From positions 1-20,346 of IMG/VR virus record IMGVR_UViG_3300025889_001205: 20,346 bases of DNA; one strand, 5' to 3'. The DNA is from a virus. Each line of letters starts with the position of its first letter. Position 1 is the first letter of the stretch. Positions 1 through 15,305 of this stretch are shown piece after piece. The notes under the pieces are model-generated. The model ran no database searches and was not told the DNA's origin. It saw only the letters and a list, made by a program, of their open reading frames with translations. The position numbers and the translations under genes were made by a program.

Positions 1-441
1 TTCGTTCCAGTTGTCACAGTAATAATAGCCTTCTATATCGCCTTCCTCGTTGCATTTCTCAGGTCTAATTAAGTTAGTAGGAATATGATAAGCTTTAATA
101 ACTTTCGTGTGTTTTTCGTCGTAGTGAACTTGAAAGTGTCCAGCTCCTAGCATCTTTAGTTCTTTGATAACTTTTCGTAAGTCCTCAGAACTAAATATAG
201 ACTTCATAGCAGCGTACTGAGATGGCTTTCTACTAGCGTCTAAAGCATGTAGTCCACGTCCGTAAATTAAACGAGAAACGTTGTTTATTACTGCGCTGTT
301 AGTAGTAGAGTTTCGAGAACGCTCTATTAAGAAGTCGTAATAGTCGTTATTGTCTCCGTATTCTACCCAGTTATTTCTAGTGTCCTCTTTTATCTCAGGC
401 TTTTCATAAGCTGCGAGGTTAAGTATTTTTATATCACTCAT
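1..441 (-). CDS. Phage portal protein, N-terminal part (runs off left edge)
   Basis: The gene starts with ATG at 441 and stays open for 147 codons to the window edge, so only the N-terminal part is seen. The portal is the dodecameric ring at the capsid vertex through which DNA is packaged and to which the tail attaches. Residues 28-42 (YGDNNDYYDFLIERS) followed by NSAVINNVSRLIYGRG near 61-76 match the start of portal proteins I know from Bacteroidota siphoviruses, where a short N-terminal tail leads into a helix that samples non-capsid partners. The start lies inside the end of the upstream 109-aa gene (stop 434-436), an 8-base overlap that suggests translational coupling. Its position at the far end of the virion cluster, away from the terminase, is unusual. 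The assignment rests on remembered family likeness, with no C-terminal part to confirm it. Confidence 0.75.
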   Translation of the reverse strand, partial: MSDIKILNLAAYEKPEIKEDTRNNWVEYGDNNDYYDFLIERSRNSTTNSAVINNVSRLIYGRGLHALDASRKPSQYAAMKSIFSSEDLRKVIKELKMLGAGHFQVHYDEKHTKVIKAYHIPTNLIRPEKCNEEGDIEGYYYCDNWNE

Positions 442-763
442 AAGTTATATAGTCGTTGTCGCTTGAATAAGTTGTAAACTCGTTATTATTTACGCTGAAG
501 TCTGATACTGTTTGATTAGTGCAAAATATTTTGTCCTTATAAACTATATCAGTAGCGTTTTTTAATTCTATTGTATAAAAGTTATTTTCTTTTAAAGCAA
601 CTATTTCATTAATTACTAAATAATATCTGTCTATAGTCGGAGTTATTACATAAGTAACAGCTTCGCCTGTTGTCTCACTTGTTAAAGTCATGCTATCCGC
701 TGCTAGCTCTCTAGGAATTACTTTAAATTCTTGAGCTATCCCTGTCTCTTGCAATATTATCAT
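434..763 (-). CDS. Hypothetical virion-associated protein (109 aa)
   Basis: This small, beta-rich, soluble protein has no signal peptide or membrane segment. The C-terminal half (residues about 70-109, containing YKDKIFCTNQ and an Asn/Ser/Tyr-rich tail) resembles short proteins that sit beside tail or portal genes in flavobacterial phages; their function is unknown to me. The gene opens the last visible transcription block: a strong terminator lies just upstream at 801-828, and the bipartite late-promoter-like motif ends 8 bases before its ATG at 763. It overlaps the portal start by 8 bases. The context suggests a virion or head-tail connector component, but that is inference only. Confidence 0.6.
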   Translation of the reverse strand: MIILQETGIAQEFKVIPRELAADSMTLTSETTGEAVTYVITPTIDRYYLVINEIVALKENNFYTIELKNATDIVYKDKIFCTNQTVSDFSVNNNEFTTYSSDNDYITYE

Positions 764-765
764 AA

Positions 766-793
766 CTTATATACGTTTAAGTGCTAATTTGTT
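766..793 (-). promoter_or_regulatory. Late-promoter-like bipartite motif, site 1
   Basis: On the minus strand, AAC (793-791) within AAACAAA is followed after 15 bases by CGTA (775-772), then TATAAG, and the ATG of the 109-aa gene begins 8 bases after CGTA. The same arrangement recurs at three other block starts (near 3413, 4973 and 12256). The layout AAC-N15-CGTA resembles ECF-sigma promoters. It sits just downstream of the terminator at 801-828. Confidence 0.6.
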
Positions 794-800
794 TTAAAAT

Positions 801-828
801 AAAAAAGGGTAACTCGAAAGCTACCCTT
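801..828 (-). terminator. Rho-independent terminator after tail tube gene
   Basis: On the minus strand, AAGGGTAGCT pairs with AGTTACCCTT across a TTCG tetraloop (10 pairs, one G-T), and the right arm runs into TTTTTT (806-801). It lies 24 bases after the stop of the tail-tube gene and before the promoter-like motif of the 109-aa gene, so it closes the scaffold-capsid-tube block. Confidence 0.85.
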
Positions 829-851
829 AAAACAATTAAACTATAAAACTA

Positions 852-1415
852 TTATGGTATTGGTGTAATTGTAGAACCGTCTCCTAATTGGATATTCATT
901 CCTAAGTTTGCTAAAGTTTGGTCTGAAGTAGCATCAACAAACAAGTGAGGAAGTTTCTCCATAGCTTGAAAAGTTAAGTTATACCCAGCCATATCTCCAA
1001 AAGCAGCACCAGTCACTATAGAACCTCCATTAACGTCAGCTCCGTGCTCATATCCTACTAAGAAGTAATTATTGTTGTTGTCTTTTACGAAAATTTTAGG
1101 TCTTCCCCAAGAAAGTAACTTTACTTCTTTATGAGTTGCTAGGTCTTGCTTCTTTAACATTACGTTTAAAACTGCATCGAAGAAAGTAGTACCGTTATCT
1201 CTACTAGAAGTAATAGCTGTCTCTAGGTTAGAAGTTCCTTTTAATTCGTATTTGTACGCTGTAGGCGTTCCGCCTATTGCTGTAACTTGGTCGTTTACAT
1301 CTAAGGTAATTTGCTCAGAAGGTAAGTCGTCGTAATTTACAAAGTAAATTGCATCTAGTCCTCCTACGTTGTCCTTACATGGCTCAAGTCTACCAGCTGA
1401 AATATCACATGCCAT
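852..1415 (-). CDS. Major tail tube protein-like virion protein (187 aa)
   Basis: The opening MACDISAGRLEPCKDNVGGL, the central ELKGTSNLETAI...SSRDNGTTFF segment (residues about 57-80) and a later GYEHGADVNGGSIVTGAAFGDMAGYNLTF segment form a pattern I recognise from abundant structural proteins of Bacteroidota siphoviruses, generally taken as the tail tube subunit. Tube subunits polymerise in stacked hexameric rings around the tape measure. The length suits a tube protein. It is flanked by terminators on both sides (1432-1463 upstream, 801-828 downstream), a usual sign of separately tuned, highly expressed structural genes. Being next to the major capsid gene and 3.5 kb from the tape measure is odd, so a head-decoration role cannot be excluded. 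Confidence 0.65.
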   Translation of the reverse strand: MACDISAGRLEPCKDNVGGLDAIYFVNYDDLPSEQITLDVNDQVTAIGGTPTAYKYELKGTSNLETAITSSRDNGTTFFDAVLNVMLKKQDLATHKEVKLLSWGRPKIFVKDNNNNYFLVGYEHGADVNGGSIVTGAAFGDMAGYNLTFQAMEKLPHLFVDATSDQTLANLGMNIQLGDGSTITPIP

Positions 1416-1431
1416 ATTTTCTATTTTTTAT

Positions 1432-1463
1432 AAAAAAGGGGGGGCGTTAACCCACCCCTTTAT
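1432..1463 (-). terminator. Terminator between major capsid and tail tube genes
   Basis: On the minus strand, AAAGGGGTGGG pairs with CCCCCCCTTTT over a TTAACG loop (one T-C mismatch, one G-T), and the T-run continues as TTTTTT. It lies 20 bases after the capsid stop and about 17 bases before the next ATG. No promoter motif is visible between it and the tail-tube gene, so read-through must supply that gene and the hairpin probably acts as a partial terminator or mRNA stabiliser. Confidence 0.75.
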
Positions 1464-1483
1464 TAAGTTATTAATTCAGTTTA

Positions 1484-2440
1484 TTAGTTAACAGCGTTAA
1501 CAATTCCGTAAGTAACTACGTCAGCAGCAAAAGCATATTGAACGCCAGCAGTAAAACGCATAATTACTCGTACGTTTTGTGAACCGTCAAGGTCTGCCAT
1601 ATCTAATACTTTTACTTCTTGGTGGTCTGACAATAAACCAGTACCAAAATACAAGTTGTCAATAGTTGACAAGATAGCAGTATCAGCAGACATACCTGGA
1701 CACATTACAACAGGAATACCATCGAAGTACAAAGCACCTCCTGAAGTATACCACATGTTACCTTTTCCTTCGAACCCGTTAGCTCCTACTCCAGCAGCAC
1801 CAAAGCCACCTAAAGAACGAACGTAAGCTTTGAAGATGTTGTTAGATACATAAAGTCTAACGTCTTCTCTTCCGTAAAGGCTGTCAGGCATAGCGTCTAC
1901 TATTTTACCTAACTCAGTAACTACGTTAGCAGAAGTAACAGTAGTACCAGTAACTTCTTGAGCAGCTGGTAATTCAGTATCTAAAGACAAAAGTCTTTCA
2001 AAACCGTCAAATTGTCCTGTAGTAGCAGCGTTACCTTGCCAAATAGAAAGCTCGTTTCTAGCAGCAGACTTTTCAGCTACATGAGCTATTAAGAAGTCAG
2101 CGAAGTTCTTAGGTAAGTTATCAAAAGCAGAGTATCCCATTTGGATAGCCTCCCAGTCGCTTCTGAAGTCAGCCTTACACAAAGACAAGTTAATTTGTAA
2201 ATCTTTTGGCTCAAGAATTTTCTCAGTCAAAGTTAATGTAGAAGTAGGGTCGAAGTCGCAAGAACCGTCTTTAACGATATCGTCTAGTCCTACTCTTTTA
2301 AGTACTTCTTTGTACTTAACGTTTTGCTTAACAGTAATTAAATTGTTAGCAATAGTCGGCGCTGGTAAAAGCGCAGCAGCTACATACTTACCAGCAAACT
2401 CGCCAGCGTAAGTAGTAGTAATTGAAGTTGTTGTTGCCAT
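1484..2440 (-). CDS. Major capsid protein, HK97-fold type (318 aa)
   Basis: The protein is 318 residues with no signal or membrane segment, rich in Ala, Gly and Val. It has an N-terminal extended stretch (MATTTSITTTYAGEFAGKY) and a long helix-rich region around residues 100-140 (FADFLIAHVAEKSAARNELSIW) like the spine of HK97-type capsid proteins. The C-terminal part (RVIMRFTAGVQYAFAADVVTYG) resembles the end of major capsid proteins in Bacteroidota phages. It follows the scaffold-like gene and is followed by a strong hairpin, the context expected of the most abundant virion gene. The leader is purely A/T (TTTAAATAAATAAAAAATG), typical of Bacteroidota translation starts. The fold is inferred from pattern and context. 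Confidence 0.8.
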   Translation of the reverse strand: MATTTSITTTYAGEFAGKYVAAALLPAPTIANNLITVKQNVKYKEVLKRVGLDDIVKDGSCDFDPTSTLTLTEKILEPKDLQINLSLCKADFRSDWEAIQMGYSAFDNLPKNFADFLIAHVAEKSAARNELSIWQGNAATTGQFDGFERLLSLDTELPAAQEVTGTTVTSANVVTELGKIVDAMPDSLYGREDVRLYVSNNIFKAYVRSLGGFGAAGVGANGFEGKGNMWYTSGGALYFDGIPVVMCPGMSADTAILSTIDNLYFGTGLLSDHQEVKVLDMADLDGSQNVRVIMRFTAGVQYAFAADVVTYGIVNAVN

Positions 2441-2461
2441 TTTTTATTTATTTAAAAATTA

Positions 2462-3103
2462 TTATTTGCTTATTAAGTCATATACTTTAGAACGTAGAGA
2501 AACTTCTTTTTTATTGAAAGATATTTGTTCTCTAGGTTGTACATTTTCAGGGTTATGTTTAATAGGCTTAGAAAGTTCTGTTTCCTCTTTTACTTCCTCT
2601 TCCATTTCAGCCTCTTCTTTCTCCTCGTCTTTTTTCATATCTTCTAAAATAGAAGGTATCTCTTCTAAAATTAGCTTTTTAATTTCGCCTATAATTTCAG
2701 CTTTGTCCTCTTCGCTAATTTTACTAGGAGCTTCCTCTTCAGCAGCAAAGTAAGTTTCTTTAGAAACAGACTCAACTATTTTTTTAGCAGTTGGCTCTTC
2801 AGTTGAGGCTTCTACTTCTACCTCCTCTTCAGCTATAGGCTCTTCAGCTTCCATTTCTTTCTTTTCGTAAGAAGCTATAATACCTTCCTCAGCTACTTTA
2901 AGAATCATGTCGTCAGCCATAGCATACTCGCCTACTGGTAAAGGTATCCTTTCATCCTCGTTAACAATAAATACAGGTTGGCCAGCTTCAAAAATTTCAG
3001 CCTCTAAAGCAGCTTGTCCGTCTGCTGTCATGATTTGCTCTAGTTTTACTTCTACAGCCTTTAAACCGACTTTTTGAAGTATTGAGTTTATTTGTTCTTT
3101 CAT
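2462..3103 (-). CDS. Possible nested in-frame scaffold product from internal start (213 aa)
   Basis: Met104 of the 316-aa fusion (ATG at 3103) lies exactly where the N-terminal domain ends and the scaffold-like part begins. Its upstream bases (TTAAATAAAATAGAAATG) are the A-rich leader typical of Bacteroidota starts. Initiation here would give a free scaffold of 213 residues alongside a smaller amount of the long fusion, as in lambda C/Nu3. The internal start is an inference; the sequence shows only the well-placed ATG and leader. Confidence 0.35.
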   Translation of the reverse strand: MKEQINSILQKVGLKAVEVKLEQIMTADGQAALEAEIFEAGQPVFIVNEDERIPLPVGEYAMADDMILKVAEEGIIASYEKKEMEAEEPIAEEEVEVEASTEEPTAKKIVESVSKETYFAAEEEAPSKISEEDKAEIIGEIKKLILEEIPSILEDMKKDEEKEEAEMEEEVKEETELSKPIKHNPENVQPREQISFNKKEVSLRSKVYDLISK

Positions 3104-3412
3104 TTCTATTTTATTTAACTTATTAATTGCCCATTCAATTCCTGAAGTTCCTCCCCAAGCGTCCCACATTAAACCTCCACAGCCTTCGCTATAAGGTACG
3201 TCTTTATGCTGTTGGTGTCTTTTAAAACTTGCCATTCTTGCTATAGTGTCTCTACTTATAGGTTCTCTATTTGCAAGCTGGCTAGCTCTCTTCTTTCCTG
3301 TAGCTTCTCCACAAGTACCCCAGCCATGTTTTTCAACCCATTCAAGTGCTCTCTTTGCGTTGTTAGTAGCACTTTGAGGGTAGTCTGTGTAACTCTCTAA
3401 AAGAACGTTCAT
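2462..3412 (-). CDS. Fusion: phage N-terminal domain plus acidic scaffold-like protein (316 aa)
   Basis: Residues 15-100 (NNAKRALEWVEKHGWGTCG, then ASFKRHQQHKDVPYSEGCGG and LMWDAWGGTSGIEWAINKL) match a small domain that I know as an N-terminal or internal fusion on portal, protease or capsid-assembly proteins of many phages; its role is unknown. From residue 104 (MKEQINSILQKVGLK) the protein changes character. A beta-hairpin-like segment (residues 108-182, with QPVFIVNEDERIPLPVGEY) resembles the repeat of Bacteroidota phage scaffold-type proteins. It is followed by a very Glu/Lys-rich, coiled-coil-prone tail to 316. Such acidic, helical proteins just upstream of the major capsid gene usually scaffold capsid assembly. 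The gene opens a block under the late motif at 3413-3441. Confidence 0.65.
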   Translation of the reverse strand: MNVLLESYTDYPQSATNNAKRALEWVEKHGWGTCGEATGKKRASQLANREPISRDTIARMASFKRHQQHKDVPYSEGCGGLMWDAWGGTSGIEWAINKLNKIEMKEQINSILQKVGLKAVEVKLEQIMTADGQAALEAEIFEAGQPVFIVNEDERIPLPVGEYAMADDMILKVAEEGIIASYEKKEMEAEEPIAEEEVEVEASTEEPTAKKIVESVSKETYFAAEEEAPSKISEEDKAEIIGEIKKLILEEIPSILEDMKKDEEKEEAEMEEEVKEETELSKPIKHNPENVQPREQISFNKKEVSLRSKVYDLISK

Positions 3413-3441
3413 TAATATATACGTTTATTAAATAGTTTGTT
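3413..3441 (-). promoter_or_regulatory. Late-promoter-like bipartite motif, site 2
   Basis: On the minus strand, AAC (3441-3439) in TAACAAA is followed after 15 bases by CGTA (3423-3420) and TATA. The ATG of the scaffold fusion begins 7 bases after CGTA. Here the whole element lies in the non-coding gap after the 86-aa gene, so its conservation cannot come from coding. Confidence 0.6.
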
Positions 3442-3447
3442 ATAATT

Positions 3448-3708
3448 TTAACTTGAAACTCTTACTATTGTCCTAGTAGTGTCCTCGTTTGTGACGTTGC
3501 TATTATTAGTACTTACTATAGGACTACTAGTCTCGCTTTCTACTCGTGTAGTATCTTCATTTGTAACTACTGAAGTATTGCCACTTACTAAGCTTCCTAT
3601 TCCTTGCGCTAATATTGAACCGTCGCAACATTTACGAGAATAAGTTTTTCCGTCTTTACATAGACAACCTCTATTACCTCCGACTGGGCTTGTTTTACTA
3701 GGTGTCAT
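3448..3708 (-). CDS. Small Cys-rich phage protein with TNEDTTR repeats (86 aa)
   Basis: Residues 9-38 hold a compact cysteine block: C15 and C17 in GCLCKDG, and C27 and C28 in RKCCDG, followed by ILAQGIG. I have seen similar blocks in small proteins encoded near capsid genes of Bacteroidota phages, without known function. The four cysteines could bind a metal or form disulfides. The rest is Ser/Thr/Asn-rich and contains VTNEDTTR twice (48-55 and 72-79, 24 residues apart), which looks like an internal duplication. There is no signal peptide or membrane segment. It ends the protease block, 3 bases after the 228-aa gene, and is followed directly by the late motif of the scaffold gene. Confidence 0.6.
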   Translation of the reverse strand: MTPSKTSPVGGNRGCLCKDGKTYSRKCCDGSILAQGIGSLVSGNTSVVTNEDTTRVESETSSPIVSTNNSNVTNEDTTRTIVRVSS

Positions 3709-3711
3709 AAT

Positions 3712-4398
3712 TTAAAACATTGTAGGCTTCTGATAGTAAGTCTGTATTAATATTCCTATACTTCCTTCAATATCTACAGAAGTTCCTGAGTCATTTCTTA
3801 AAGCAAAGTAAAAGCCACCAGTTACGAAAGGGTCTGAAGCTCCAGCTGTGTAAGTAACAAAATTAAATTGGTTACCGCTTACATCTTGGTCTCTATTTAC
3901 TTTTATTTCACTTCCTATAATAGAGTCGTCTGCAAAACGTCTTAAAGAAAGTCCTAAAGTTTGAGTAGAGCCAGTAGTTATACCAAAGTTTACTCTAATA
4001 TTGTGCTGTAACCTTTGCCCCTCGTATGCTGTACCAGTATAAGGTATAATAACATGGTCGCCAGTTCCAGCTATGTCTAGCTCGTCGTATGAAGTAGTAC
4101 CGCTTGCTACTTTGTCTGTTGCATTATCAAAGAAAGTAAAACCGTTTGCTATTTCTCCGTTTAATAAAGTAACAGGAGTTACTATTGTTTTACTCCATTG
4201 AGTAGAACCAAAGTTAACAGCATCTGTAGTAACTACGCTACCACTATCTAATAGTGCGCTTGCTGGGTTAGTTCCGTCAAAGTAATATACTTGTCCGTTA
4301 TAGTAGTACATTGAGCCTTGCTCGTTCTTTAAGCCTGAAGGGTCGTTAACTATGTCTAGCCTTACATTATAAGCTGTGTTTTTAATATCTCTTGCCAT
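3712..4398 (-). CDS. Beta-rich virion protein, possible capsid decoration or fibre (228 aa)
   Basis: This is not a family I can name. The N-terminal 55 residues (with MYYYNGQVYYFDGTNPA) look like a short anchoring or beta-prism segment of the kind found at the start of phage fibre and decoration proteins. From about residue 75 the pattern is alternating hydrophobic strands with Gly/Thr turns, ending in FYFALRNDSGTSVDIEGSIG and IQTYYQKP. This is reminiscent of C1q/TNF-like jelly rolls, in which a late strand carries the N-D/S-G turn. It lies between the prohead protease and the scaffold/capsid genes in the same block, which favours a head-surface role. The jelly-roll reading is inference. Confidence 0.5.
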   Translation of the reverse strand: MARDIKNTAYNVRLDIVNDPSGLKNEQGSMYYYNGQVYYFDGTNPASALLDSGSVVTTDAVNFGSTQWSKTIVTPVTLLNGEIANGFTFFDNATDKVASGTTSYDELDIAGTGDHVIIPYTGTAYEGQRLQHNIRVNFGITTGSTQTLGLSLRRFADDSIIGSEIKVNRDQDVSGNQFNFVTYTAGASDPFVTGGFYFALRNDSGTSVDIEGSIGILIQTYYQKPTMF

Positions 4399-4399
4399 T

Positions 4400-4972
4400 T
4401 TATTTAATTATGTTTTTTAGTTGTTTAATAATGTCCTCTTTTTCGTCGCTCATTTCTAAGGCTTCTAGTCCTTGATAAATCCCCTCAATTGAGAATCCTT
4501 TATAGTCTCCAGCTTTTATCTTTTGCCACTCTTCCTCGTTGTAAACTTTCATAGTGATTGCCCAGCTACCTACAGGAGCTTTAAGATTGTAAAGTGCTGT
4601 CTTGTCTTTGTCAGTATCTTCTACTATCCAGCTCTCTATTACGCTCACTCCTTTAACTGGTCTTTCGTGTTCGCTTGTTATGTTGTTTAAGTTTAGTTTT
4701 TTCATAAACAGCTCAGCAGTTTTGTAGATAGTTTCTTTAGAGAAGTATATATTAAATTCTTTCTCTTTTATTTTGCGATAAATACGCTTTTCAGGAACTA
4801 AAGCTAGCCCTGTAACTATTCGCTTCTCATCGTCTACTACTTTAAGCTCCATTTTATAACCTGATAAGGCTACAAAGTTCTCTTCTATTGCTGGATTCTC
4901 GACAAGTGAAACAGCGAAAACTCCATCTTCTGTCTCGTCTTCTATAAATAATTCTACTTCTTGTAATTCCAT
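4400..4972 (-). CDS. Prohead maturation protease, XkdF-like (190 aa)
   Basis: It likely cleaves scaffold and capsid proteins inside the prohead. The N-terminus (residues 6-37, with FAVSLVENPAIEENF) is the signature opening of XkdF-like phage proteases. His102 sits in NITSEHERPVKG and Ser161 in GDYKGFSIEG, the usual His and Ser positions of this serine-protease fold, with the strand SWIVED (114-119) between them. The length is normal for the family. It opens a late block: the bipartite motif at 4973-5002 overlaps the end of the tape-measure gene. It is followed within 2 bases by the 228-aa gene. Catalytic residues are assigned by pattern only. Confidence 0.75.
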   Translation of the reverse strand: MELQEVELFIEDETEDGVFAVSLVENPAIEENFVALSGYKMELKVVDDEKRIVTGLALVPEKRIYRKIKEKEFNIYFSKETIYKTAELFMKKLNLNNITSEHERPVKGVSVIESWIVEDTDKDKTALYNLKAPVGSWAITMKVYNEEEWQKIKAGDYKGFSIEGIYQGLEALEMSDEKEDIIKQLKNIIK

Positions 4973-5002
4973 AACTTATTTACGTTTAAAGTGTACTTTG
5001 TT
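4973..5002 (-). promoter_or_regulatory. Late-promoter-like bipartite motif, site 3
   Basis: On the minus strand, AAC (5002-5000) in CAACAAA is followed after 15 bases by CGTA (4984-4981), and the protease ATG begins 8 bases after CGTA. CGTA is followed by AATAAG instead of TATAAG. The upstream half lies in the last codons of the tape-measure gene. Confidence 0.55.
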
Positions 5003-6929
5003 GTATTTTGTTTCTTTGTAACGACTGAGCAGTAGTTACGTCTCCAGCGACTACATAAGCCTGTAAAGGTTGCTGTCCTAAAGTCTCTGCTAGTTGGTTA
5101 GTGCCTGTATTTCCTACTACGTTAAACACAGCTGGAGAACTTACAGCAGTAGGAGGATTCGGAGCAGTAGGAGAAGCACCTCCTCCACCTCCGCTACCAC
5201 TAGCTTGAAATTGTGTAGCAGAAATAGTAGCAATTTGAGCAGCGCCTGTAGCAGCAACTATACCAGCCTTAACAAAGTTAGCTCCAGTTAACGCATCTTG
5301 TGGTACTGCTAACTGTGTTATAATACCTTGTGCTGTACTTATTATTGCTTGCCCTATACTTATAGCTTTATTGATATTAAAAGCTCTCCTTTGCGCCTCT
5401 TCACTTTCTCCAGCAAAAGCAGTTACTAAATCTGAAATAGCTTGTAAACTTTGTTGAGCCATTTCTATTTTAGCATCTCTTAAGGCAGCTTCTCTTTCTT
5501 CCTCTTCTTTAACCCTTTGAGCAGCATCTAATAAAGACTTTTTATATAGTTCTGCTTGTTTTAGTCTTTCCTCTTTTCTATATCTATCTTTTATTTCTTT
5601 AATAGCTGCTTGCTGTGCTTCCTCTAATAAAGCTGTATCTTCTCCGTGTTGTTTAGCTGCTTCTAATATAGCAAAGTACTTATCATAGACAGCGTTTATT
5701 TCTTGCTGTTCTTTTTCTATTTTACTTTGTAAATACTCATCTTCTAGTTTAGCTATTTCAGTAATTAAGTCAGATTCTGCTTGTGCCTCTTTTGCTATTC
5801 TAGCTAACTTTTCAGCAAGTTCTTTTTCCTCTCTAGCTTTTCTTTCAGCAGCCTCTTTTTCTCGTCTTGCTTTTCGTTTATCGGCAGCTTCTTGCTGTGC
5901 TTTTAATTTATCAAGCTCTGCTTGTCTAGTAAATTCTACTTCGTCTATTTGCATTTGACGAGCTAGCTCTACTGACTCTTCCTCTAGTTTTAATATTTTA
6001 TCATTATTAATTTCAATTTGTTTGTTAATTTCTTCTCCTTTTTTCTCTGTTAACTCTCCTAAATCATGTAGTAAGTTCCACTGTTTCTCAAGCAATTTTT
6101 GTTCTGCAGCTATTTGATTTTTAAATTCAATGTTTGCTTGTAATCGTTCTTTTCTATTTTTTTGAATAGCATAAAAAATATCTGCTTCGGAATCTCCCCG
6201 AGCTTTCATCATTCTTATTTCAAAGTCTCGAGTTTTTTCTATTGCCTTACGTTCTTTTTCTAAAGCCTCTATTCGTTTTCTTGATTGCTCTAAAAAATCT
6301 TCCGTACGTTTTAGATTTTCGTTAGCTAATTTTTCTGATTCATCGTCTACAATTCCTATCCATTTTGTAAATTCGTCCCATTTTAAAATTAAAGCTACAG
6401 TTAAAGTTGTAAGTATAGAGATAGCTGTTATAATTGCACCTAATGGATTAGCAGCAGCAGCCGCTCGCATAATAATCATCAAAGCTTTAAAGGATTTAAA
6501 AGCATGTATAAGTCCCTGTATACCCTGAGCCATAGCCATAGCACTTTGAACTTGTAAAAGTGCTTCTTCCATTTTTTCGCTATCTACTCCGAAGGCACCC
6601 ATTAAGCCACTAGCAAATTCGAAACCATGAGCTACTCCTTGTAAAGACCCTACTAAAGCACTATTAAAGCTTTGAGATAACTGTTTTACTTCTTTATTTG
6701 CGCTGCTTAATTTGCCTTGCAATTCGCCAGCCTTTGCAGCTAACTCGTTAAATTCTCTAGAGCCTTTTTCGCCAGCTAGAGCCATTTCTTTAAGACGTTT
6801 CTTAAGTTCGTTAAACTCTTTTACAGTAGCAGCATTTTTTAACTCTTCAAAAGAAAGAGATAATTTATCTACGTTTTTCGTAGCGTTCTCAGTGTCAACA
6901 TTTATATTAACAGTTTTTTCTATCGCCAT
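4986..6929 (-). CDS. Tail tape measure protein (647 aa)
   Basis: It sets tail length and is ejected ahead of the DNA. The sequence shows an N-terminal helical region (1-90) and a hydrophobic stretch around residues 145-183 (ANPLGAIITAISILTTLTVA) that could insert in the host membrane. A very long Glu/Lys/Ala-rich coiled coil follows from about 205 to 490, then a second hydrophobic Ala-rich helix near 525-570 and a Gly-rich C-terminal part (SGSGGGGGA). This layout is standard for tape measures. At roughly 0.15 nm per helical residue it predicts a tail of at most about 100 nm. It starts with ATG at 6929 inside the end of the 47-aa gene (10-base overlap), so the two are translationally coupled. 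Unusually, the tail-chaperone gene is more than 4 kb upstream. Confidence 0.85.
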   Translation of the reverse strand: MAIEKTVNINVDTENATKNVDKLSLSFEELKNAATVKEFNELKKRLKEMALAGEKGSREFNELAAKAGELQGKLSSANKEVKQLSQSFNSALVGSLQGVAHGFEFASGLMGAFGVDSEKMEEALLQVQSAMAMAQGIQGLIHAFKSFKALMIIMRAAAAANPLGAIITAISILTTLTVALILKWDEFTKWIGIVDDESEKLANENLKRTEDFLEQSRKRIEALEKERKAIEKTRDFEIRMMKARGDSEADIFYAIQKNRKERLQANIEFKNQIAAEQKLLEKQWNLLHDLGELTEKKGEEINKQIEINNDKILKLEEESVELARQMQIDEVEFTRQAELDKLKAQQEAADKRKARREKEAAERKAREEKELAEKLARIAKEAQAESDLITEIAKLEDEYLQSKIEKEQQEINAVYDKYFAILEAAKQHGEDTALLEEAQQAAIKEIKDRYRKEERLKQAELYKKSLLDAAQRVKEEEEREAALRDAKIEMAQQSLQAISDLVTAFAGESEEAQRRAFNINKAISIGQAIISTAQGIITQLAVPQDALTGANFVKAGIVAATGAAQIATISATQFQASGSGGGGGASPTAPNPPTAVSSPAVFNVVGNTGTNQLAETLGQQPLQAYVVAGDVTTAQSLQRNKIQQSTL

Positions 6930-7063
6930 GCTTTTTTCCTTTTTTCTTGTTTCAACTTAGCTTTAAAACTTGTTTCTAGTTTGTATTTGCCTTTAGCTAT
7001 GTCTACATTCTCTCCGACTTTTAGCCATTCGTCCATTTGTAGTAAATCTATTATTAGTCTCAT
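6920..7063 (-). CDS. Small basic protein between tail protein and tape measure (47 aa)
   Basis: ATG at 7063 overlaps the TGA stop of the 801-aa gene (ATGA), and its own TAG (6920-6922) lies inside the first codons of the tape-measure gene. It therefore fills the 130-base gap exactly and is coupled on both sides. The product begins MRLIIDLLQMDEWLKVGENV and ends in a Lys/Arg-rich helix (KAKLKQEKRKKAWR). I do not recognise the family. The position just before the tape measure is normally taken by chaperone genes, so a tail-assembly helper is a reasonable guess, no more. The double overlap is the main evidence that it is real. Confidence 0.65.
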   Translation of the reverse strand: MRLIIDLLQMDEWLKVGENVDIAKGKYKLETSFKAKLKQEKRKKAWR

Positions 7064-9465
7064 AGTTTTATTTTTTGTATGTTTTCTTGTAATAATAAGC
7101 TATTATCTTCTTGTAATAAATATCCGTCTACTCCGTCTTGTTTAATTATAAATTTCTCTTCCTCGATTATGTCTCCGTTAGAGTTCTTATATTGAATAGT
7201 GTACTCAGCTTCTCTCTTAACTCCGCTTACATTAGTAGCTATTATAAAGTCTATTACTATGTCCCCATTTTCGTCTGTTACATCTACAGGGTCTGTACTT
7301 ATCCAAGGGTAAGGCGCAGCTGGGACTACGTTCCAAACGTCTCCTTTGCTTGGCTTAATAGGTGCAACTGGTACGCTTATAACTCCTCCACCTTCAGGAA
7401 CTGTAGGAAATACTGGAGGTACTTTTCGTCTAGTTGTTACCACTAAGTCAGTAATTAATTCTAGTGTTACTTTGCCAGTAGTTAACTGAGACTTCATTAA
7501 ATTAATTCTATACTTCTTATCTCTTATAATTAAAGCATCGTTTAACTGAATAGAGTTTAATAAGCTTAAAGGTAAGTTAGTATCTACTGTAACTATCCTA
7601 GCTTTGTCTGAAAATAAGTTTTGTAAATATGCTCTATAATATATGTTATATAGCGAGTTCTCGTTTGGCTCTAAACTTAAAGAACTTATTTCCTCGTTGA
7701 AGTTGATTGAATAGTCTGAAACATTGTAAAAAGTATCTTGTCCAAAAGGGTAGTAGTTTGTTATCTCTTCAGGTGTAACTCCGTCACTTAAATAAAAGCT
7801 AGTTGTTTTACTTTGAGGGTAAAAATATAGCATAGTACAATTAGGAATAACAGGCTTATAGTCAGGAGCAGTTTCTAGTGAATAGCCTACCTGTAAATCT
7901 GTGCCTGTGAACTTGCTAAATAATAAAGTCTCAAAAGGCAAATCTATTATAAAGTCTCCTCCGTCATATCCGAAATAACTAGTAAGCCCTCCGTATTGTT
8001 TGTTGTTGTTTTCCTTGTATTTAACATTCAATAAGCTTTTACTTTCTTGCCAGTTAAACTCTATGTTAGTGTAAAGCTTTGGTCTATCTACTTTTATAGT
8101 GCTTATGTCAGTATATTGCGTTATGTCTATTGTTTCTCCGTAAGCGTACCATCTTTCTAAAGGCTCAACTTGAAAAGTATCAGTAGCAGTAGGGTAGCAC
8201 GTTAAATTAAACATTCTTAAAAGCCCCGAGAAATAGTCTGAAATAGTTATATCAGGAGCAGTAAAGTTAAAGTCTATAAAGTCGCTTTGAACAAATGAAT
8301 AGTTATCACTACCCGCACTTCTACTAATTTCAAAAGTTTGGTTACTTGAATCTGTTACGCTGTATACAAAATTCCAACCTACTGATACTATAAAAGTGTC
8401 TGAATCATTTGAACGAAAATAAAACTCGTAATAATCATCCATTCCTGTCAAGTTCTGATATTCTACAGCCCATTCTAAATAGACATCTGACGTAATTACT
8501 CCAGTGCTATATTCATAAGTTCCGTTTTTGTAAACATCAATAACAAACTGAGAAGCTGGATTTGCAGCAGCCACTAATAGCTGAGACTGAAAATAAGCAT
8601 AATTAAAAGTCCAAGTTCCGTCATTATAAGGTGTCCATTGCATTACATCAATGTATTTAAACCTTACTTTATTATCTGCTAGTGGGTCATAGTCAACCTC
8701 TGCGCCTGTAGGATTAGGATTAACAGGAGAATATACTGGCCATTCTAAAAGAACAGGAGCCTTACCAGCTGTAAATACGTCGCTATTTTTCCACCATGTA
8801 AATAAGTTTTCAAATCTTGTATCGTAATCTATAAAACTACCAGTAAAATTTATACCGTATTTGTTCTCTATTAATTCAAGTACTTTCTTTGCTCTAATTG
8901 CTGGAAATAACTCTCCAAACTCTATAGCAGTTCCTGAGTTAGCTATATTCTCTGTGCCACTGCCATAAGTCCAAACTCTCTCGCTAGATATTAAAGGAAA
9001 TCTTACATCTAAGTCCGCTCCGCTTGTAATAGTGTTTTTCACTTCGGCATAAGTACCCTCAAACTCTATACTACTATAGTCTAAGTCCCTTAACTTGTCG
9101 TCTTGAAATAAGTCTTTTAAAGTAACTACTTCGCCATAAAAAGTAATAGTATAGTTTTGTATTTGTCCGTCTTTTAGTTCTGTTCCTTCTAGTTGTATCT
9201 TACCAGTCCTGAAAGGCGTGTAGTTTATTTCTATTCTCGCTGGTTGTCTAGTCTTAGCTATAAAACCGTCTTCTACATCGTTTTGGTAATAGTGTCTAAA
9301 TATTTGGTTATTATTAGGAGAAGCAGGAACTGTGAACTGCTGAGAAAAGTCAGTAAATACTTTAGCTATGTCGTTAATGTTTTGAACGCTAGAACTTACC
9401 TCTATATTCTCGTCGTCGAATAAGTCTAATATTTGGTCATTAATATATATCTGTACTTGTCTCAT
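7060..9465 (-). CDS. Large tail protein with C-terminal BACON-like domain (801 aa)
   Basis: The N-terminus (MRQVQIYINDQILDLFDDEN, then DFSQQFTVPASPNNNQIFRHYY at about 40-62) is typical of large tail-tip or baseplate proteins of Bacteroidota siphoviruses. The first 700 residues are beta-rich and aromatic with no membrane segment. Near residue 690 a Pro/Gly linker (PVFPTVPEGGG) leads to a module at about 718-779 with PWISTDP, IIATNVSGVKREAEYTIQY and FIIKQDG, the pattern of a BACON-like immunoglobulin fold. Such domains are linked to glycan or mucin binding. The last residues carry a duplicated LLQE unit (YLLQEDNSLLLQEN). It overlaps the 343-aa gene upstream and the 47-aa gene downstream by a few bases. 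The role as distal tail or adhesion component is inferred. Confidence 0.65.
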   Translation of the reverse strand: MRQVQIYINDQILDLFDDENIEVSSSVQNINDIAKVFTDFSQQFTVPASPNNNQIFRHYYQNDVEDGFIAKTRQPARIEINYTPFRTGKIQLEGTELKDGQIQNYTITFYGEVVTLKDLFQDDKLRDLDYSSIEFEGTYAEVKNTITSGADLDVRFPLISSERVWTYGSGTENIANSGTAIEFGELFPAIRAKKVLELIENKYGINFTGSFIDYDTRFENLFTWWKNSDVFTAGKAPVLLEWPVYSPVNPNPTGAEVDYDPLADNKVRFKYIDVMQWTPYNDGTWTFNYAYFQSQLLVAAANPASQFVIDVYKNGTYEYSTGVITSDVYLEWAVEYQNLTGMDDYYEFYFRSNDSDTFIVSVGWNFVYSVTDSSNQTFEISRSAGSDNYSFVQSDFIDFNFTAPDITISDYFSGLLRMFNLTCYPTATDTFQVEPLERWYAYGETIDITQYTDISTIKVDRPKLYTNIEFNWQESKSLLNVKYKENNNKQYGGLTSYFGYDGGDFIIDLPFETLLFSKFTGTDLQVGYSLETAPDYKPVIPNCTMLYFYPQSKTTSFYLSDGVTPEEITNYYPFGQDTFYNVSDYSINFNEEISSLSLEPNENSLYNIYYRAYLQNLFSDKARIVTVDTNLPLSLLNSIQLNDALIIRDKKYRINLMKSQLTTGKVTLELITDLVVTTRRKVPPVFPTVPEGGGVISVPVAPIKPSKGDVWNVVPAAPYPWISTDPVDVTDENGDIVIDFIIATNVSGVKREAEYTIQYKNSNGDIIEEEKFIIKQDGVDGYLLQEDNSLLLQENIQKIKL

Positions 9466-10496
9466 TAAATAACATAGTTAAGTTGGTTATGACTGTACTC
9501 AAATTCTACTCTGTAGTTTATTAGTTTCTCGTTTATATGCTCTTGTAATAATACGCTCTGAGTTCTTAACTTAACTGGCTCGTCGTTTAGCATTATCTTC
9601 TCACTAAGTAACATTGCTTTCATTACATCCTTATAACTTTCAGGTACGAAGCCAGTATTACAAGTAATTGATTTAATAGCGTTTCTATTAAATACTTGTC
9701 TTCTATTCTCGTATATATCGTAGTTAATATTCTCACTCATAAAGTGGTACTCAGTGCCAGTAGCTTCAAAGTTACTTTGACTGGCTTTAAAGAATATTAT
9801 CTGCTGCCAGACTCCGTACTGGTTAATAAAGTCGCATACTATAGGGCTGTATTTAGGCTCGCAAATAGGCACAAAGTAATAAGTTCTAACAGGAGCTCCA
9901 GCTTCGTAAATATCAACTTGGTTAGTTACTCCGATATGGCTAGGGTGCACATAAGGCACAAAGTTAACTCCATTGTTTAAGCTTATAGCATCTGTGTTAT
10001 TGTAAACAGCTTGAGTTAAACTACCTGATACATTGTGATAGTATATTCCTCCTCCGTTTCCTGTCTCTTGTACGTAGTAAGTAGCTTCGTCTAAAAATAT
10101 ATGGCTGTCAGTTATTCCGCTTGTATCTCCTAAGCTTGGGTTATATCCTTGTTCATAATATCCGAATCCGTCAAAAGCTACATAGTCAGTTGTTAATTCT
10201 TGTACCTCGTTTACGTAGAGAATAACTCTCAAGTTAACATACTCACTATTGCCAGCTGCTGTTTCTACTGAAGCACTAGTAAACTTCTGAAAAGAAATAT
10301 ACTCTCTACAGTAAGGGCTAACATCAAAGTAAGCTGTATCTGCTATCGAGCTAGGTATTACTTTACTTAGTGTGTAAGTAGGCGTACCAGGTACTGATGC
10401 TGGGTTGTTATATAAATATAGTTCCGCTTTTACTACGTCTGAAACTGTAGCTGTCTTACTTACTATATAAGGGCTTCTTACAAATATACTAGTCAT
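9465..10496 (-). CDS. Tail-associated protein, distal tail type (343 aa)
   Basis: This beta-rich protein with many Tyr and Asn has no signal peptide or membrane helix. The opening (MTSIFVRSPYIVSKT, then VKAELYLYNNP and YFDVSPYCREYI) resembles proteins paired with the large tail-tip protein in Bacteroidota phages, where I know the pair only as tail or minor structural proteins. The start ATG at 10496 overlaps the stop of the gp10-like gene by 8 bases, and its stop (TAA, 9465-9467) overlaps the ATG of the 801-aa gene. The tight coupling implies products needed in fixed ratio. A distal tail or baseplate hub role fits the position, but no domain proves it. Confidence 0.55.
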   Translation of the reverse strand: MTSIFVRSPYIVSKTATVSDVVKAELYLYNNPASVPGTPTYTLSKVIPSSIADTAYFDVSPYCREYISFQKFTSASVETAAGNSEYVNLRVILYVNEVQELTTDYVAFDGFGYYEQGYNPSLGDTSGITDSHIFLDEATYYVQETGNGGGIYYHNVSGSLTQAVYNNTDAISLNNGVNFVPYVHPSHIGVTNQVDIYEAGAPVRTYYFVPICEPKYSPIVCDFINQYGVWQQIIFFKASQSNFEATGTEYHFMSENINYDIYENRRQVFNRNAIKSITCNTGFVPESYKDVMKAMLLSEKIMLNDEPVKLRTQSVLLQEHINEKLINYRVEFEYSHNQLNYVI

Positions 10497-11070
10497 TTGT
10501 TATATTCTTTGTTGTACTTGTTAAAAATCTTTCTACATCTAAACCGAACTTATTTATCAAGTCATCAGGCAACTTTTTAAAAGCTGCTTCGAATGGCTTA
10601 GTAAAAAACATAGTCGGCTTTATTCCTCTATTATAAATGTTTCCAGCTACTATTTGAGCTATTGTTTTATAAGTTCCTTTTGTAAATCTTCCTTTCTCGT
10701 CTCTTAATCTTAGGTTTTTTCTTTTAACCCATTTTTCAATGTTATTTACAAAAGTTCCCCAAGTTCCTTTAAAGTTTCCACTGCCAAATCTGTAAGGGCT
10801 ATTAGGAGCTTGCTGCCCTCTTATTGCTTTGTCCCCTCCTTTTACTTTACTAGGATTTGCTCCTTTAACTCCTTGGTCTACAAATAAGCCGTATCGCTCC
10901 ATTAAGAAGCTAAAAGCAAAGCTATTTTTCATAACTCTTAATTCATAGTCTAAGCTATTGTAAAGTTCTTTGCTTGAGTTCTTATCTTTCTTAGTTAGGT
11001 TCTGTCTACTAGCTTTAATAACAGCTTGAGCAAATTTGCTTAATTCTATTTTTAGCTCCTCGCCTAACAT
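10489..11070 (-). CDS. HK97 gp10-like head-tail/tail completion protein (193 aa)
   Basis: The protein is basic and helical at both ends. Residues 55-95 (MERYGLFVDQGVKGANPSKV, then a Gly-rich basic loop) and 110-175 (KWVKRKN, TIAQIVAGNIYNRGIKPTMFF) carry the hallmarks of HK97 gp10-like proteins: an aromatic-Gly-V-D-x-G turn and a late helix followed by G(I/L)KP and an aromatic pair. Members act at the head-tail joint or in tail completion. The length is slightly above the usual 130-170 because of a Lys/Asn insertion. It overlaps the 150-aa gene by 7 bases and the 343-aa gene by 8 bases. The position between tail terminator and tail proteins is as expected. Confidence 0.65.
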   Translation of the reverse strand: MLGEELKIELSKFAQAVIKASRQNLTKKDKNSSKELYNSLDYELRVMKNSFAFSFLMERYGLFVDQGVKGANPSKVKGGDKAIRGQQAPNSPYRFGSGNFKGTWGTFVNNIEKWVKRKNLRLRDEKGRFTKGTYKTIAQIVAGNIYNRGIKPTMFFTKPFEAAFKKLPDDLINKFGLDVERFLTSTTKNITND

Positions 11071-11516
11071 ATAGTCATTTCGTTAGGAATCAATACATCA
11101 AAAGTAACAGCCCAGCCAGCTAAGTAATTTTCAAAGCGTTCTGTAAAAGGTTCTATACTAGGGTCTCCGTCTATTCTAAAAGTCCTTGTGTTCTCTCCTC
11201 TGTCAAATATTTCAAGCATACGTAACACTACAGCTAACTGAGTATTAAGTACGTCTTGTTCGTTGTCGTTGCCTCTGAATATGTCAGTAGTTTCCTCTTT
11301 TGGTTTGTCTACTATATCCATACACATTACAGTAACATTAAACCGAAGTACGTTGCTTTCTCTCGTTAAATTGTTAACCATAACATGAGATAAAGGGAAT
11401 ATAGTCTGCTTGCTTAAGTCTATCTCGAATATATCGCCTTCTGTTACTGTATTAACAAAAACATCTTGCTCTAACTGCTCTCTAATAGTTGTTAATATGT
11501 TATAGTATCCTGTCAT
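11064..11516 (-). CDS. Tail terminator/completion-like protein (150 aa)
   Basis: This acidic alpha/beta protein has a central block (HVMVNNLTRESNVLRFNVTV, then MCMDIVDKP and GNDNEQDVLNTQLAVV) and an ending (EPFTERFENYLAGWAVTFDV) that I recognise as a frequent protein next to gp10-like genes in Bacteroidota siphoviruses. The conserved ATFDV/PN-type ending and size suit the tail terminator or completion family, which caps the tail tube under the connector. Its ATG at 11516 overlaps the TGA of the frameshifted tail-chaperone frame (ATGA, 11513-11516), not the 0-frame stop, which lies 58 bases upstream. This supports coupling to the long chaperone product. The functional name is inferred from context. 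Confidence 0.6.
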   Translation of the reverse strand: MTGYYNILTTIREQLEQDVFVNTVTEGDIFEIDLSKQTIFPLSHVMVNNLTRESNVLRFNVTVMCMDIVDKPKEETTDIFRGNDNEQDVLNTQLAVVLRMLEIFDRGENTRTFRIDGDPSIEPFTERFENYLAGWAVTFDVLIPNEMTIC

Positions 11517-12255
11517 CTCTTAAAGCTTTTCTTTATTTCGTTTGTTTCTATTCTATTCTTTTCAGTTTCAAAGGTTAGGTATGTAAGGGCTGTAGCAAGC
11601 GGTAATCTAGTGACCTCTTCAAAGTATCTAACATCTCCTCTAGCGAGTTGATAAATACTGGAATACCATCCCCATTTTTTGCTAAATTGGGAGCGTGCTG
11701 AGTAATCTCTTTCGCTTGCCTCTCCAAATAACTGGGCAAAGCTTTTAGTAATTCGCTTCCTAAATTGTAAAAAAAAACCTGTGCACCTAACACTACATTT
11801 AAAGGCATTAGCTTCATTAACTCGCTATAAGGTTCAGTTCCTTTATAATCTACTATCCTGTACTCCTCTTTTAAACTGTTACATATCGGCCTAAATAAAA
11901 CAGCCATAGCTCTGTGCATTTCTTCCCAGTCTCCTATGTACTTGTCAAGGTCTACATACTCTCCAAAAGTAATAGCATCTAACTTAGGTATAAAGCCGAA
12001 GTTAAAGCCTTTTAACTTAAACTTATTTACTAGTGGTTTATCTTGGATAAACAAGTTATCTAAGTGAAAGCATATCTCATCTATTGACTTCTTTTCTATC
12101 ATTCCTACCTCATCTAGTGGTATTAGGCAAAAGTGGTTAATCATTAAAGCCTTTAACTCATCCTCTTGAACGTCTTTAGCTTGTTTCAAAAAAGACTGAT
12201 ACTGAACTAGAGTTATCTCGCTTAAGTTCTCAGGAACATTAATTTTTACTTCCAT
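11513..12255 (-). CDS. Tail assembly chaperone, long -1 frameshift product (about 247 aa)
   Basis: This is the GT-like fusion. It reads residues 1-162 in the first frame to a run of nine T (11777-11769), slips back one base, and continues for 85 residues in the -1 frame to TGA at 11513-11515. The added part contains FSKKWGWYSSIYQLARGD and EVTRLPLATALTYLTFE and ends in a charged helix (EKNRIETNEIKKSFKR). It reads as good protein and resembles the second-frame domain of tail chaperones in other Bacteroidota phages. The -1 frame is open from 11824 to 11513 but has no ATG, GTG or TTG, so it cannot start on its own. It ends in an ATGA overlap with the next gene. In lambda, G and GT bind the tape measure during tail assembly. 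Confidence 0.75.
11575..12255 (-). CDS. Tail assembly chaperone, short product (226 aa)
   Basis: This is the unshifted product of the same gene (G-like). The N-terminal part (EVKINVPENLSEITLVQYQSF) and the segment around residues 85-125 (FGFIPKLDAITFGEYVDLD, then HRAMAVLFRPI) are typical of the tail-chaperone-like protein that follows the terminase in Bacteroidota phages, where a predicted helical body with an R-P-I motif is kept. After the slip site at codons 160-162 the 0 frame runs on 64 residues (with KNGDGIPVFINSLEEMLDTL), so about 196 bases are read in two frames. The start ATG at 12255 is preceded by the late motif. A chaperone role is inferred from frameshift architecture and likeness. 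Confidence 0.7.
   Translation of the reverse strand: MEVKINVPENLSEITLVQYQSFLKQAKDVQEDELKALMINHFCLIPLDEVGMIEKKSIDEICFHLDNLFIQDKPLVNKFKLKGFNFGFIPKLDAITFGEYVDLDKYIGDWEEMHRAMAVLFRPICNSLKEEYRIVDYKGTEPYSELMKLMPLNVVLGAQVFFYNLGSELLKALPSYLERQAKEITQHAPNLAKNGDGIPVFINSLEEMLDTLKRSLDYRLLQPLHT
11769..11777 (-). other. Slippery run of nine T for -1 ribosomal frameshift
   Basis: The 0-frame codons are GTT TTT TTT TAC, so the heptamer T TTT TTT (11776-11770) fits the X XXY YYZ rule. After the slip the next codon is TTA at 11770. A second candidate, A AAA AAT in GCA AAA AAT GGG, lies downstream at 11680-11674 in the same phase. The T9 run is favoured because the protein-like part of the -1 frame (FSKK...) begins before the second site. 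Confidence 0.7.
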
Positions 12256-12285
12256 AATTTATATACGTTTAATTATTCTTTTGTA
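12256..12285 (-). promoter_or_regulatory. Late-promoter-like bipartite motif, site 4
   Basis: On the minus strand, TAC (12285-12283) in ATACAAAA replaces AAC but the ACAAA core is kept. CGTA follows after 15 bases (12267-12264), then TATAAA, and the chaperone ATG begins 8 bases later. The element lies in the non-coding gap after the terminase large subunit and would start the long tail block. Confidence 0.6.
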
Positions 12286-12375: not shown

Positions 12376-13572
12376 TTATCTTATGTAATATTCTCCTCTA
12401 TGTACATTCTCTAACTGATAGCTTACTGCATATCTTAAAGCGTCTATAGCATGATTGTATTTGTCTATAGGAGTATTACTCTTCTTTTCTAGCCAGCTGT
12501 AGTTGTTTAGTTCCTTAATTAAGTCCGTACTATCAGGGTCTATAATCAAATCAAAGTCCTGAAGTAAAGCTATTCCGAAAGTTACTGAGCCTTGCCCTTT
12601 AATAGTTGGCACTATGTTATTAACAGCGCTTAGTTCACTAATTAACCTAGGCTCTGCTGAGTCTGCTACTATTAAGTTCTTTTTAGCAAAGCGTACATTT
12701 AACTCTGCTATCTGTGACGTTGTTAAGCCTTGCTTATAGTAGTGTAGTTTAATGTATATCTTTTTTCCGCTTTTATCTATCGACGTTTCTACTAAGGTAG
12801 TAGGGTCTGCTGAAAAGCCAAAGTCCTGTCCGAATACGCTAGTACTTACTTGCTTGAACTGTCCTATTTGCCAGTTGTTGAATACTACTCCCTCTGCTCT
12901 ATCTAGCCAGCCTCCTAATATCTGATGCTTGTACTTCTCGGGTCTGCGCTGTTTAATGTTCTCTATTTGATTTAAATAGCTTTCACTTAAGTTGTCTATA
13001 TTGTCTAGGTAAGTAGTATGAATATATGTAGTATCCCCTTTTTTGTCGTTAGTGCTTTCTTGCACTCCCCTAGCTTCAAAGAATCTTTGATAGATAAAAT
13101 GCTCTTTAGTTGTAGGGTTCATTATTAGTATTACCCTGTTTCGTATTCCTTTAGCTCTTACTGATAAGTCTATTTTATCAAAAGTGTCTTCGTCTGTTAG
13201 CTCCTCTGCCTCATCTAGTACCCAAGTAGTAACTCCTTGTAAAGACTTTAAGTTAGCTGTTTGGTCTCCTGAGCTTGTTTTAATACCTCTGAATAGTATA
13301 CGGCTGTTAGTAGCTAGGTTTATTATTTCGTCTTTTGTGACGTGAAATAAGTCCTCCATTTTTAAGAGTTCTATTTTCTCCAAAAATTCGGGAATAATAG
13401 ATACGCTAGCTGAGCGCAAAGTATAACGAGTAAAAAGAATGACATGTCCTTGCTGTTGAGTTAGTAAACATAGTAAAGTTGATATAGCAAACGACTTACC
13501 CGAGCCACGTCCACCAGTTACTATGTAATAGCGTGAGTCAGAGTCGAATACTAGGTATTTCTCATTTATCAC
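12376..13572 (-). CDS. Terminase large subunit (398 aa)
   Basis: This is the ATPase-nuclease motor that packages and cuts phage DNA. The ATPase half has Walker A GGRGSGKS (residues 20-27), Walker B TTWVLDEAEEL (115-125) and a coupling segment ILIMNPTTKEHF (149-159). The RNase-H-like nuclease half has FGQDFGFSADPTTLVE, then LIVADSAEPRLISEL and the final YNHAIDALRYAVSY, which supply the three acidic metal ligands. The length is normal for the short PBSX/SPP1-like group. The start is GTG at 13572, overlapping the small-subunit stop by 11 bases; no in-frame ATG lies nearby and the family starts just before this point. It is followed by the structured 120-base gap. Confidence 0.93.
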   Translation of the reverse strand: MINEKYLVFDSDSRYYIVTGGRGSGKSFAISTLLCLLTQQQGHVILFTRYTLRSASVSIIPEFLEKIELLKMEDLFHVTKDEIINLATNSRILFRGIKTSSGDQTANLKSLQGVTTWVLDEAEELTDEDTFDKIDLSVRAKGIRNRVILIMNPTTKEHFIYQRFFEARGVQESTNDKKGDTTYIHTTYLDNIDNLSESYLNQIENIKQRRPEKYKHQILGGWLDRAEGVVFNNWQIGQFKQVSTSVFGQDFGFSADPTTLVETSIDKSGKKIYIKLHYYKQGLTTSQIAELNVRFAKKNLIVADSAEPRLISELSAVNNIVPTIKGQGSVTFGIALLQDFDLIIDPDSTDLIKELNNYSWLEKKSNTPIDKYNHAIDALRYAVSYQLENVHRGEYYIR

Positions 13573-15051: not shown

Positions 15052-15305
15052 AGTATTTCCTTTCTTATATTGTACTGCTCTAATAACTCAGTAATAAGCT
15101 CGTAAACTTCTGTAACTCCTTCGTACATTCCAGTTATTCTCTCATTAGGTAAGTCTAAGCTTTCTATCTTATTGTAAACCTCAGCTCTTCTATTGATATA
15201 CAAGTCCCAAAGCATTAAAGCCATGTCATTACTCTTAATAGCTCTTTGAAAAGCTTTATAGTCGTTTTCGTCTTTTAAGTTATATGTTAATTCAGCTGTG
15301 CTCAT
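15048..15305 (-). CDS. Hypothetical protein (85 aa)
   Basis: It contains YNLKDENDYKAFQRAIKSND followed by MLWDLYINRR and a C-terminal acidic helix (VTEVYELITELLEQYN). The combination of a 'DEx-D-x-x-x-F-x-x-A' helix and an LWDLxxxxR segment recalls a common small phage protein of unknown function. The start ATG overlaps the stop of the sigma-like gene (ATGA at 15302-15305), so it is co-translated with it. No catalytic or membrane feature is visible. Confidence 0.55.
   Translation of the reverse strand: MSTAELTYNLKDENDYKAFQRAIKSNDMALMLWDLYINRRAEVYNKIESLDLPNERITGMYEGVTEVYELITELLEQYNIRKEIL

Follow-up and report, generated by a model that had tools for sequence, protein, structure and literature searches.

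The virion genes of the phage studied here are very probably transcribed from four late promoters that are read by host core RNA polymerase associated with the phage's own ECF-type sigma factor and that would yield leaderless mRNAs. The stretch of DNA analyzed (hereafter the window) is a virus record of 20,346 bp with 34.5% GC, in which the minus strand carries essentially all genes. Transcription proceeds from the early side, at ~20.2 kb, down to the gene for the terminase large subunit (terL, 12376-13572) and then through the virion module, which comprises, in this order, a 226-aa gene, tail genes, the tape measure, a Peptidase_S78_2 protease, capsid-type genes, and the portal. The features on which we rely are listed below.

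772-793, minus strand: putative late-promoter element 1, AACAAA-TTAGCACTTAA-ACGTA, 8 nt before the ATG at 763; orthologous site in 9 other phages.
3420-3441, minus strand: putative late-promoter element 2, AACAAA-CTATTTAATAA-ACGTA, 7 nt before the ATG at 3412; same site in relative G004.
4981-5002, minus strand: putative late-promoter element 3, AACAAA-GTACACTTTAA-ACGTA, 8 nt before the ATG at 4972; orthologous site in distant phages.
12264-12285, minus strand: putative late-promoter element 4, TACAAA-AGAATAATTAA-ACGTA, 8 nt before the ATG at 12255; orthologous site in many diverged phages.
434-763, minus strand: 109-aa gene downstream of element 1 and followed by the portal gene; no PHROG match.
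2462-3412, minus strand: 316-aa gene downstream of element 2 and upstream of a capsid-type gene.
4400-4972, minus strand: gene behind element 3 for a protein resembling head maturation proteases; Pfam Peptidase_S78_2.
11575-12255, minus strand: 226-aa gene downstream of element 4, the first of the virion block after terL; phrog_32199.
15302-15799, minus strand: predicted sigma factor of the ECF type with 165 aa and no regions other than 2 and 4 (family Pfam matches, profile, and fold).
15804-15811, minus strand: TATATTTG, a -7 half-site of the host sigma-A type; 4 nt separate it from the sigma ATG.
17532-17539, minus strand: TATATTTG, a further -7 half-site of the host sigma-A type; 20 nt separate it from the early-side gene 16987-17511.
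805-828, minus strand: AAGGGTAGCTTTCGAGTTACCCTT-TTTTATTTT, an intrinsic terminator that immediately precedes element 1; same place in relatives.

The pattern ACAAA-N11-ACGTA has four exact matches in the window, exclusively on the minus strand (792-772, 3440-3420, 5001-4981, and 12284-12264; the 5' ends given in the first-pass annotation, as in the list above, are one base longer and include the preceding A or T), compared with 0.08 on average, and never more than 1, in dinucleotide shuffles of the window. The distances of 8, 7, 8, and 8 nt to the ATGs at 763, 3412, 4972, and 12255 agree with the placement first reported, and a scan of the window that tolerated one mismatch yielded 0 extra matches, i.e., no halo of near matches. 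All four sites (4/4) stand upstream of virion-module genes, whereas the early-side genes of the window, terL among them, lack the element, which upholds the claim that it precedes late genes only. At its 3' end, the tape-measure gene runs into element 3. Within one genome the spacers differ from site to site, so that no site is a copy of another; the bases right before ACGTA are also constant in the clade of the window, where they read TAAACGTA or TTAAACGTA, with TAAACGTA at 4/4 window sites. The element can be read as AAC-N15-CGTA and thus combines the AAC -35 box, the CGT -10 box, and the ∼15-17-nt spacing of ECF-type promoters, such as that of Bacillus SigW (consensus TGAAAC-N16-CGTA). It had also been claimed that two of the sites follow a terminator or other structured gap. 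Site 1 does, with a clear terminator at 828-805, but our scan detected none before elements 2, 3, and 4. A second intrinsic terminator is located at 1441-1458, before the 852-1415 gene.

Relatives of the phage retain the element. G004, a 32,217-bp relative whose sigma is 91% identical, has the same four sites and no others; a reversed control pattern gave 0 matches in this genome. A dyad search of G004 without prior pattern, covering all 5-mer/gap/5-mer pairs upstream of genes, ranked the element first, with 4/4 occurrences upstream. The shuffle counts and the G004 pattern together rule out a chance origin of the four sites. A search of related phages had been proposed with the first-pass annotation, and it showed that the element persists upstream of the orthologues of three of the four genes at 28-67% protein identity, with diverged flanks and spacer. 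It recurs before the orthologue of 11575-12255 in many further phages, and some relatives have no recognizable element before the orthologous gene. The ACAA of the -35 box is the most constant part of the orthologue alignment, and the -10 box reads ACGTATA, GCGTAAAA, TCGTTTA, AGGTTTATA, or AGTTATTA depending on the genome.

As general features, the "exactly 11 bases" and the "ACGTA" of the original description have to be given up. The gap from ACAA to GT is 14, 15, or 16 nt across the sigma-bearing phage family and constant in the window clade only, and in other clades the -35 box contains TAC and the -10 box AGT or GGT. We therefore rejected a single family-wide motif with a constant 11-base gap, because both gap and -10 vary by genome. 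The ACAA/GTW pattern was picked after the orthologue alignment, and contigs fetched later provide an independent check, with a broader peak: ACAA tops all 256 4-mers at the expected -35 place (40 versus 11.5 at other spacings), and the spacing peaks at 15-16 nt (19 and 13). A control that read the -35 box as AACA was contaminated, as it catches genuine AACAA sites one base off. In this later set (contigs L188-L378), we also noticed an excess of ACAA-N18-GTW before gene starts (15 versus about 4), which possibly reflects a further clade in which the gap is longer or the -35 box differs. In addition, relatives of the 11575-12255 gene in L201, L225, L232, L235, and L242 are preceded by clearly different -10 boxes (CTTAATTATA, TATTGTAT), which probably represent further sigma specificities. 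The pairing of sigma and promoter was found in dozens of IMG/VR phages.

A phage sigma had been assumed but not located in the first-pass annotation, and we found it in the window at 15302-15799. Judged by family profile and modeled fold, the product of this gene is a divergent ECF-type sigma factor. On its own, the sequence scores 17.2 bits against Sigma70_r2 (E 0.0044), short of the curated family cut-off of 24, which is a sensitivity threshold and not a defining ECF trait, and it has no PHROG match; membership in the ECF group is based on the family profile and the fold. In a 40-member family alignment (A1), Pfam Sigma70_r2 was recognized in 13/40 members (best E value, 2.7e-6) and Sigma70_r4_2 at 6e-5, and the profile aligned over positions 12-158 with Mycobacterium tuberculosis SigL in the PDB (1e-4), SigW being the next match. 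With 165 aa and domains sigma2 and sigma4 only, the protein has the architecture of ECF (group 4) sigmas, which span about 160-200 aa. A single-sequence fold reached a pLDDT of 40, so we used an alignment-based AlphaFold (AF2) model (pLDDT 79), for which the top Foldseek matches in the PDB were ECF sigmas and the best viral structure matches included entries named Sigma70-ECF. The full-length model superposes poorly (TM about 0.4), probably owing to a flexible placement of the two domains, whereas single domains alone fit well: the region 4 domain superposes on SigE region 4 bound to -35 DNA with a TM of 0.81 and an rmsd of 1.4 Å. One IMG/VR query with the sigma retrieved 330 related stretches, and a profile search of genome contigs, aimed at the host, found no relative. 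Directly upstream of the sigma gene, 15815-16015 encodes a 66-aa Cro/C1-type HTH protein (HTH_26) that might regulate the early-to-late switch.

Judged by capsid and terminase, the Nonlabens phages P12024S and P12024L (Inhavirus), seawater phages of a flavobacterium, are the nearest isolates. Their gp33/gp35 are recorded as "hypothetical, Sigma-70 region 2," and their records carry no promoter annotation. The window sigma is too diverged to match any of the phage records by tblastn, and it was gene order and hhalign that revealed the homologue, which aligns with A1 at 97.7% probability (E 1.3e-12). The gene is located shortly before the terminase, a place similar to that in the window, and the P12024S protein scores 25.2 bits against Sigma70_r2, above the cut-off of 24. 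Six AACAAA-N13/14-CGTTAAT sites occur in each of the two phages, always with an ATG 7-8 nt downstream (in P12024S, the ATGs at 3031, 5412, 21280, 23961, 25201, and 26802), and the same box pair ranked first in a dyad search without prior pattern there. The P12024S form, AAC-N16/17-CGT, belongs to the same promoter class as the window element, but the gap in the two isolates is one or two bases longer and CGTTA replaces ACGTA. In P12024S (L184), an element at 21250-21280 lies before the gene two places after sigma, upstream of terL. The terminase thus appears, from the position of this site, to be also part of the late regulon in P12024S, unlike in the window. As controls, we searched five Flavobacteriaceae phages (RAP44, 11b, P12002S, Harreka_1, and Arctus_1) with the sigma HMM and found no match in any; these sigma-less genomes hold 1 correctly placed site in 221 kb, whereas the window has 4 and P12024L has 6. 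The proposal of an ECF-like late promoter is thus strengthened by the sigma encoded in the window, by the conservation of orthologous sites, and by the presence of the element in cultured sigma-bearing phages.

The -10 core is largely uniform inside a genome and differs between genomes (CGTA, CGTT, GGTT, or AGTT). The window and G016 have CGTA throughout, P12024S has CGTT at 5/5 sites located 8 nt from the start, and G013 has GGTT at 4/5. The -10 4-mer is the same in 35/47 within-genome pairs, compared with a mean of 11.7 and a maximum of 25 in 10,000 permutations, which ignore kinship. Such a concerted change per genome is expected if the sites are read by a factor encoded in that genome. All C-type representatives (9/9) have Arg at sigma residue 63, at the end of the region 2.4 helix, whereas nearly all of the A and G types carry Lys or Asn there. 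This association with the -10 base is the best of about 260 columns (Fisher, 6e-7), with shared ancestry as a serious caveat, and the best sigma tree, which is poorly resolved, contains only about 4 changes of -10 base and residue 63, one of them firmly supported. We keep residue 63 as a lead only, a candidate specificity determinant. A short region 2 loop as the cause of the C-type -10 was dropped, since L199 has the short loop together with A.

The distance between the element and the start codon is fixed to the base. Counting start codons that open at least 50 codons in all sigma-bearing contigs, we found 76 distinct elements with GTW exactly 8 nt from the start, whereas 7 and 9 nt are represented by 4 and 3 elements, respectively, and the second most frequent distance by 15 elements. 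Clustering (elements more than 8 mismatches apart) left 44 at 8 nt, versus a mean of 2.6 for the other distances. When all IMG/VR contigs were scanned with the exact pattern, 34 distinct matches turned up, 9 of them at 8 nt and one at 7 nt. A pyrimidine (T or C) precedes the ATG at 44/47 elements, compared with 1502/2951 (51%) of other starts, so that both the constant -10-to-ATG distance and the pyrimidine-purine step of leaderless promoters are present. Transcripts made with the phage 7-11 and phiEco32 sigmas start 6-9 bp from the promoter sequence (PMC8948821). With that offset, the simplest reading places the start at the A of the ATG. Shine-Dalgarno pairing plays no part in flavobacterial translation, which makes leaderless late messages plausible. 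Among flavobacterial host mRNAs, 87% have leaders over 10 nt (PMC6847099) and 5.5% are leaderless (PMC9723704). The near-leaderless transcripts proposed at the outset are favored by this single exact distance, and we have moderate confidence that the late mRNAs are strictly leaderless.

The early side carries signals of a different type. The -7 signal of the Bacteroidetes primary sigma has the consensus TAnnTTTG (PMC6847099), and such boxes precede the sigma gene, the 16987-17511 gene, and 19539-20228; none is found within 80 nt of the four late starts, which thus lack the host sigma-A (Bfr type) signature. The early promoters of the window are half-sites, and no TTG stands at the -33 spacing of the one at 15804-15811. 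Full TTG-N19/20-TAnnTTTG promoters occur in G005 and P12024L, where they stand 23-24 nt upstream of an early-side ATG. E. coli-type TTGACA/TATAAT is no more frequent in the window than in shuffles. The TATATTTG box stands merely 4 nt before the sigma ATG, and the message of the sigma gene itself may be leaderless too.

Based on these results, we propose that TAnnTTTG promoters direct the host sigma-A holoenzyme to the early-side genes (those right of about 12.4 kb), as the half-sites suggest, and that, going by gene order, the early transcript would supply the phage sigma. The sigma holoenzyme would then bind the late promoters, with their ECF-like -35 box, [A/T]ACAA[A/T], and a -10 box that is ACGTA here, a step strongly implied by co-occurrence, ECF homology, and the genome-specific concerted -10 variants. 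That the late promoter is read by the phage sigma is what we propose with high confidence from the sequence comparisons. The exact 8 nt between GTW and ATG, together with the -1 pyrimidine, imply initiation at the A of the start codon, which would produce leaderless late mRNAs. We also lean, with some reserve, toward a broader picture of a leaderless virion regulon, shared by a widespread family of Bacteroidetes-type phages, in which the sigma sets the start on the AUG and in which the -10 code and the sigma diversify together, residue 63 being the candidate determinant.

One could imagine that a host ECF sigma reads the elements, the phage protein acting elsewhere and the phage hijacking a host stress regulon. 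Flavobacteria do have several ECF sigmas, and the host ECF motif SM6 of Flavobacterium psychrophilum, likened here by description, has a CGT -10 box as in our element, although it belongs to a host stress/T9SS regulon with no phage sigma (PMC9723704). We consider this improbable, given that sigma-less Flavobacteriaceae phages lack the element, that the -10 core shifts in concert over the sites of one genome, and that the -10 base covaries with sigma residue 63, though with only about 4 independent changes on the tree. Phage late genes often require activators, and with a small HTH_26 protein encoded directly upstream of sigma, the element might instead be an operator that lies next to a host promoter and binds an activator or a repressor, for instance the Cro/C1-type protein at 15815-16015. 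This is very improbable, as the four late starts have no TAnnTTTG host -7 box nearby and the element is bipartite with a promoter-like gap, is non-palindromic, and keeps a distance to the ATG that is constant to the base.

The same constant distance would suit a translation initiation signal in a leadered mRNA, to which we give hardly any credence: few genes per genome carry the element, its conserved -35 box lies about 30 nt from the ATG, beyond normal ribosome contact, and the GT at -11/-10 contrasts with the A-rich stretches ahead of the other starts of these phages. A closer variant of our proposal keeps the late promoters and places the transcription start a few bases inside or before the ATG, giving short leaders or a different start codon. 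It draws on the 6-9-bp range of the phage 7-11 and phiEco32 starts (PMC8948821), which leaves one or two bases uncertain, and on the one window site and few relatives at 7 or 9 nt. We regard it as unlikely, considering that the 8-nt peak (76 versus 4 and 3) and the -1 pyrimidine fit a start at the A.

A late regulon served by a phage sigma is of a known kind. Salmonella phage 7-11 has a sigma with regions 2 and 4 (SaPh711_gp47), bipartite late promoters, and an order from host-sigma early to phage-sigma late transcription (PMC8948821), which we propose here as well; like 7-11, our phage encodes a sigma and bears a bipartite motif upstream of late genes only. Compared by description, the 7-11 consensus is GTAAtg-16-aCTA (PMC8948821), versus ACAA-N14/15/16-GTW in the window family, which, unlike 7-11, consists of Bacteroidetes-type phages and has the ATG locked 8 nt after GTW. 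The gp36 sigma of phiEco32 also serves middle and late genes, but from single-element promoters (tAATGTAtA) and without similarity in region 4 (PMC8948821), whereas both boxes and region 4 are present in the window. Bacillus SigW and M. tuberculosis SigL resemble the window sigma by profile and fold, and the promoters are readable as AAC-N15..17-CGT; unlike them, the window sigma is phage-borne with no anti-sigma recognized, and the promoters of its family have [A/T]ACAA[A/T] at -35 and a -10 that varies between phages. The authors of the 7-11 study predicted more undescribed sigma/promoter pairs (PMC8948821). In the freely readable literature, we found no description of sigma-dependent late promoters in Bacteroidetes phages, and this sigma family and its ATG-locked promoter appear to be undescribed.

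The cultured phages P12024S and P12024L make the late-promoter proposal directly testable. If late mRNAs are leaderless, the question arises of how flavobacterial ribosomes, which serve mostly leadered host mRNAs, translate abundant phage messages. The many naturally paired sigmas and promoters would provide material for decoding ECF specificity, and the regulatory code proposed here for a very common, nearly uncultured phage group would allow late genes to be read off metagenomic contigs.
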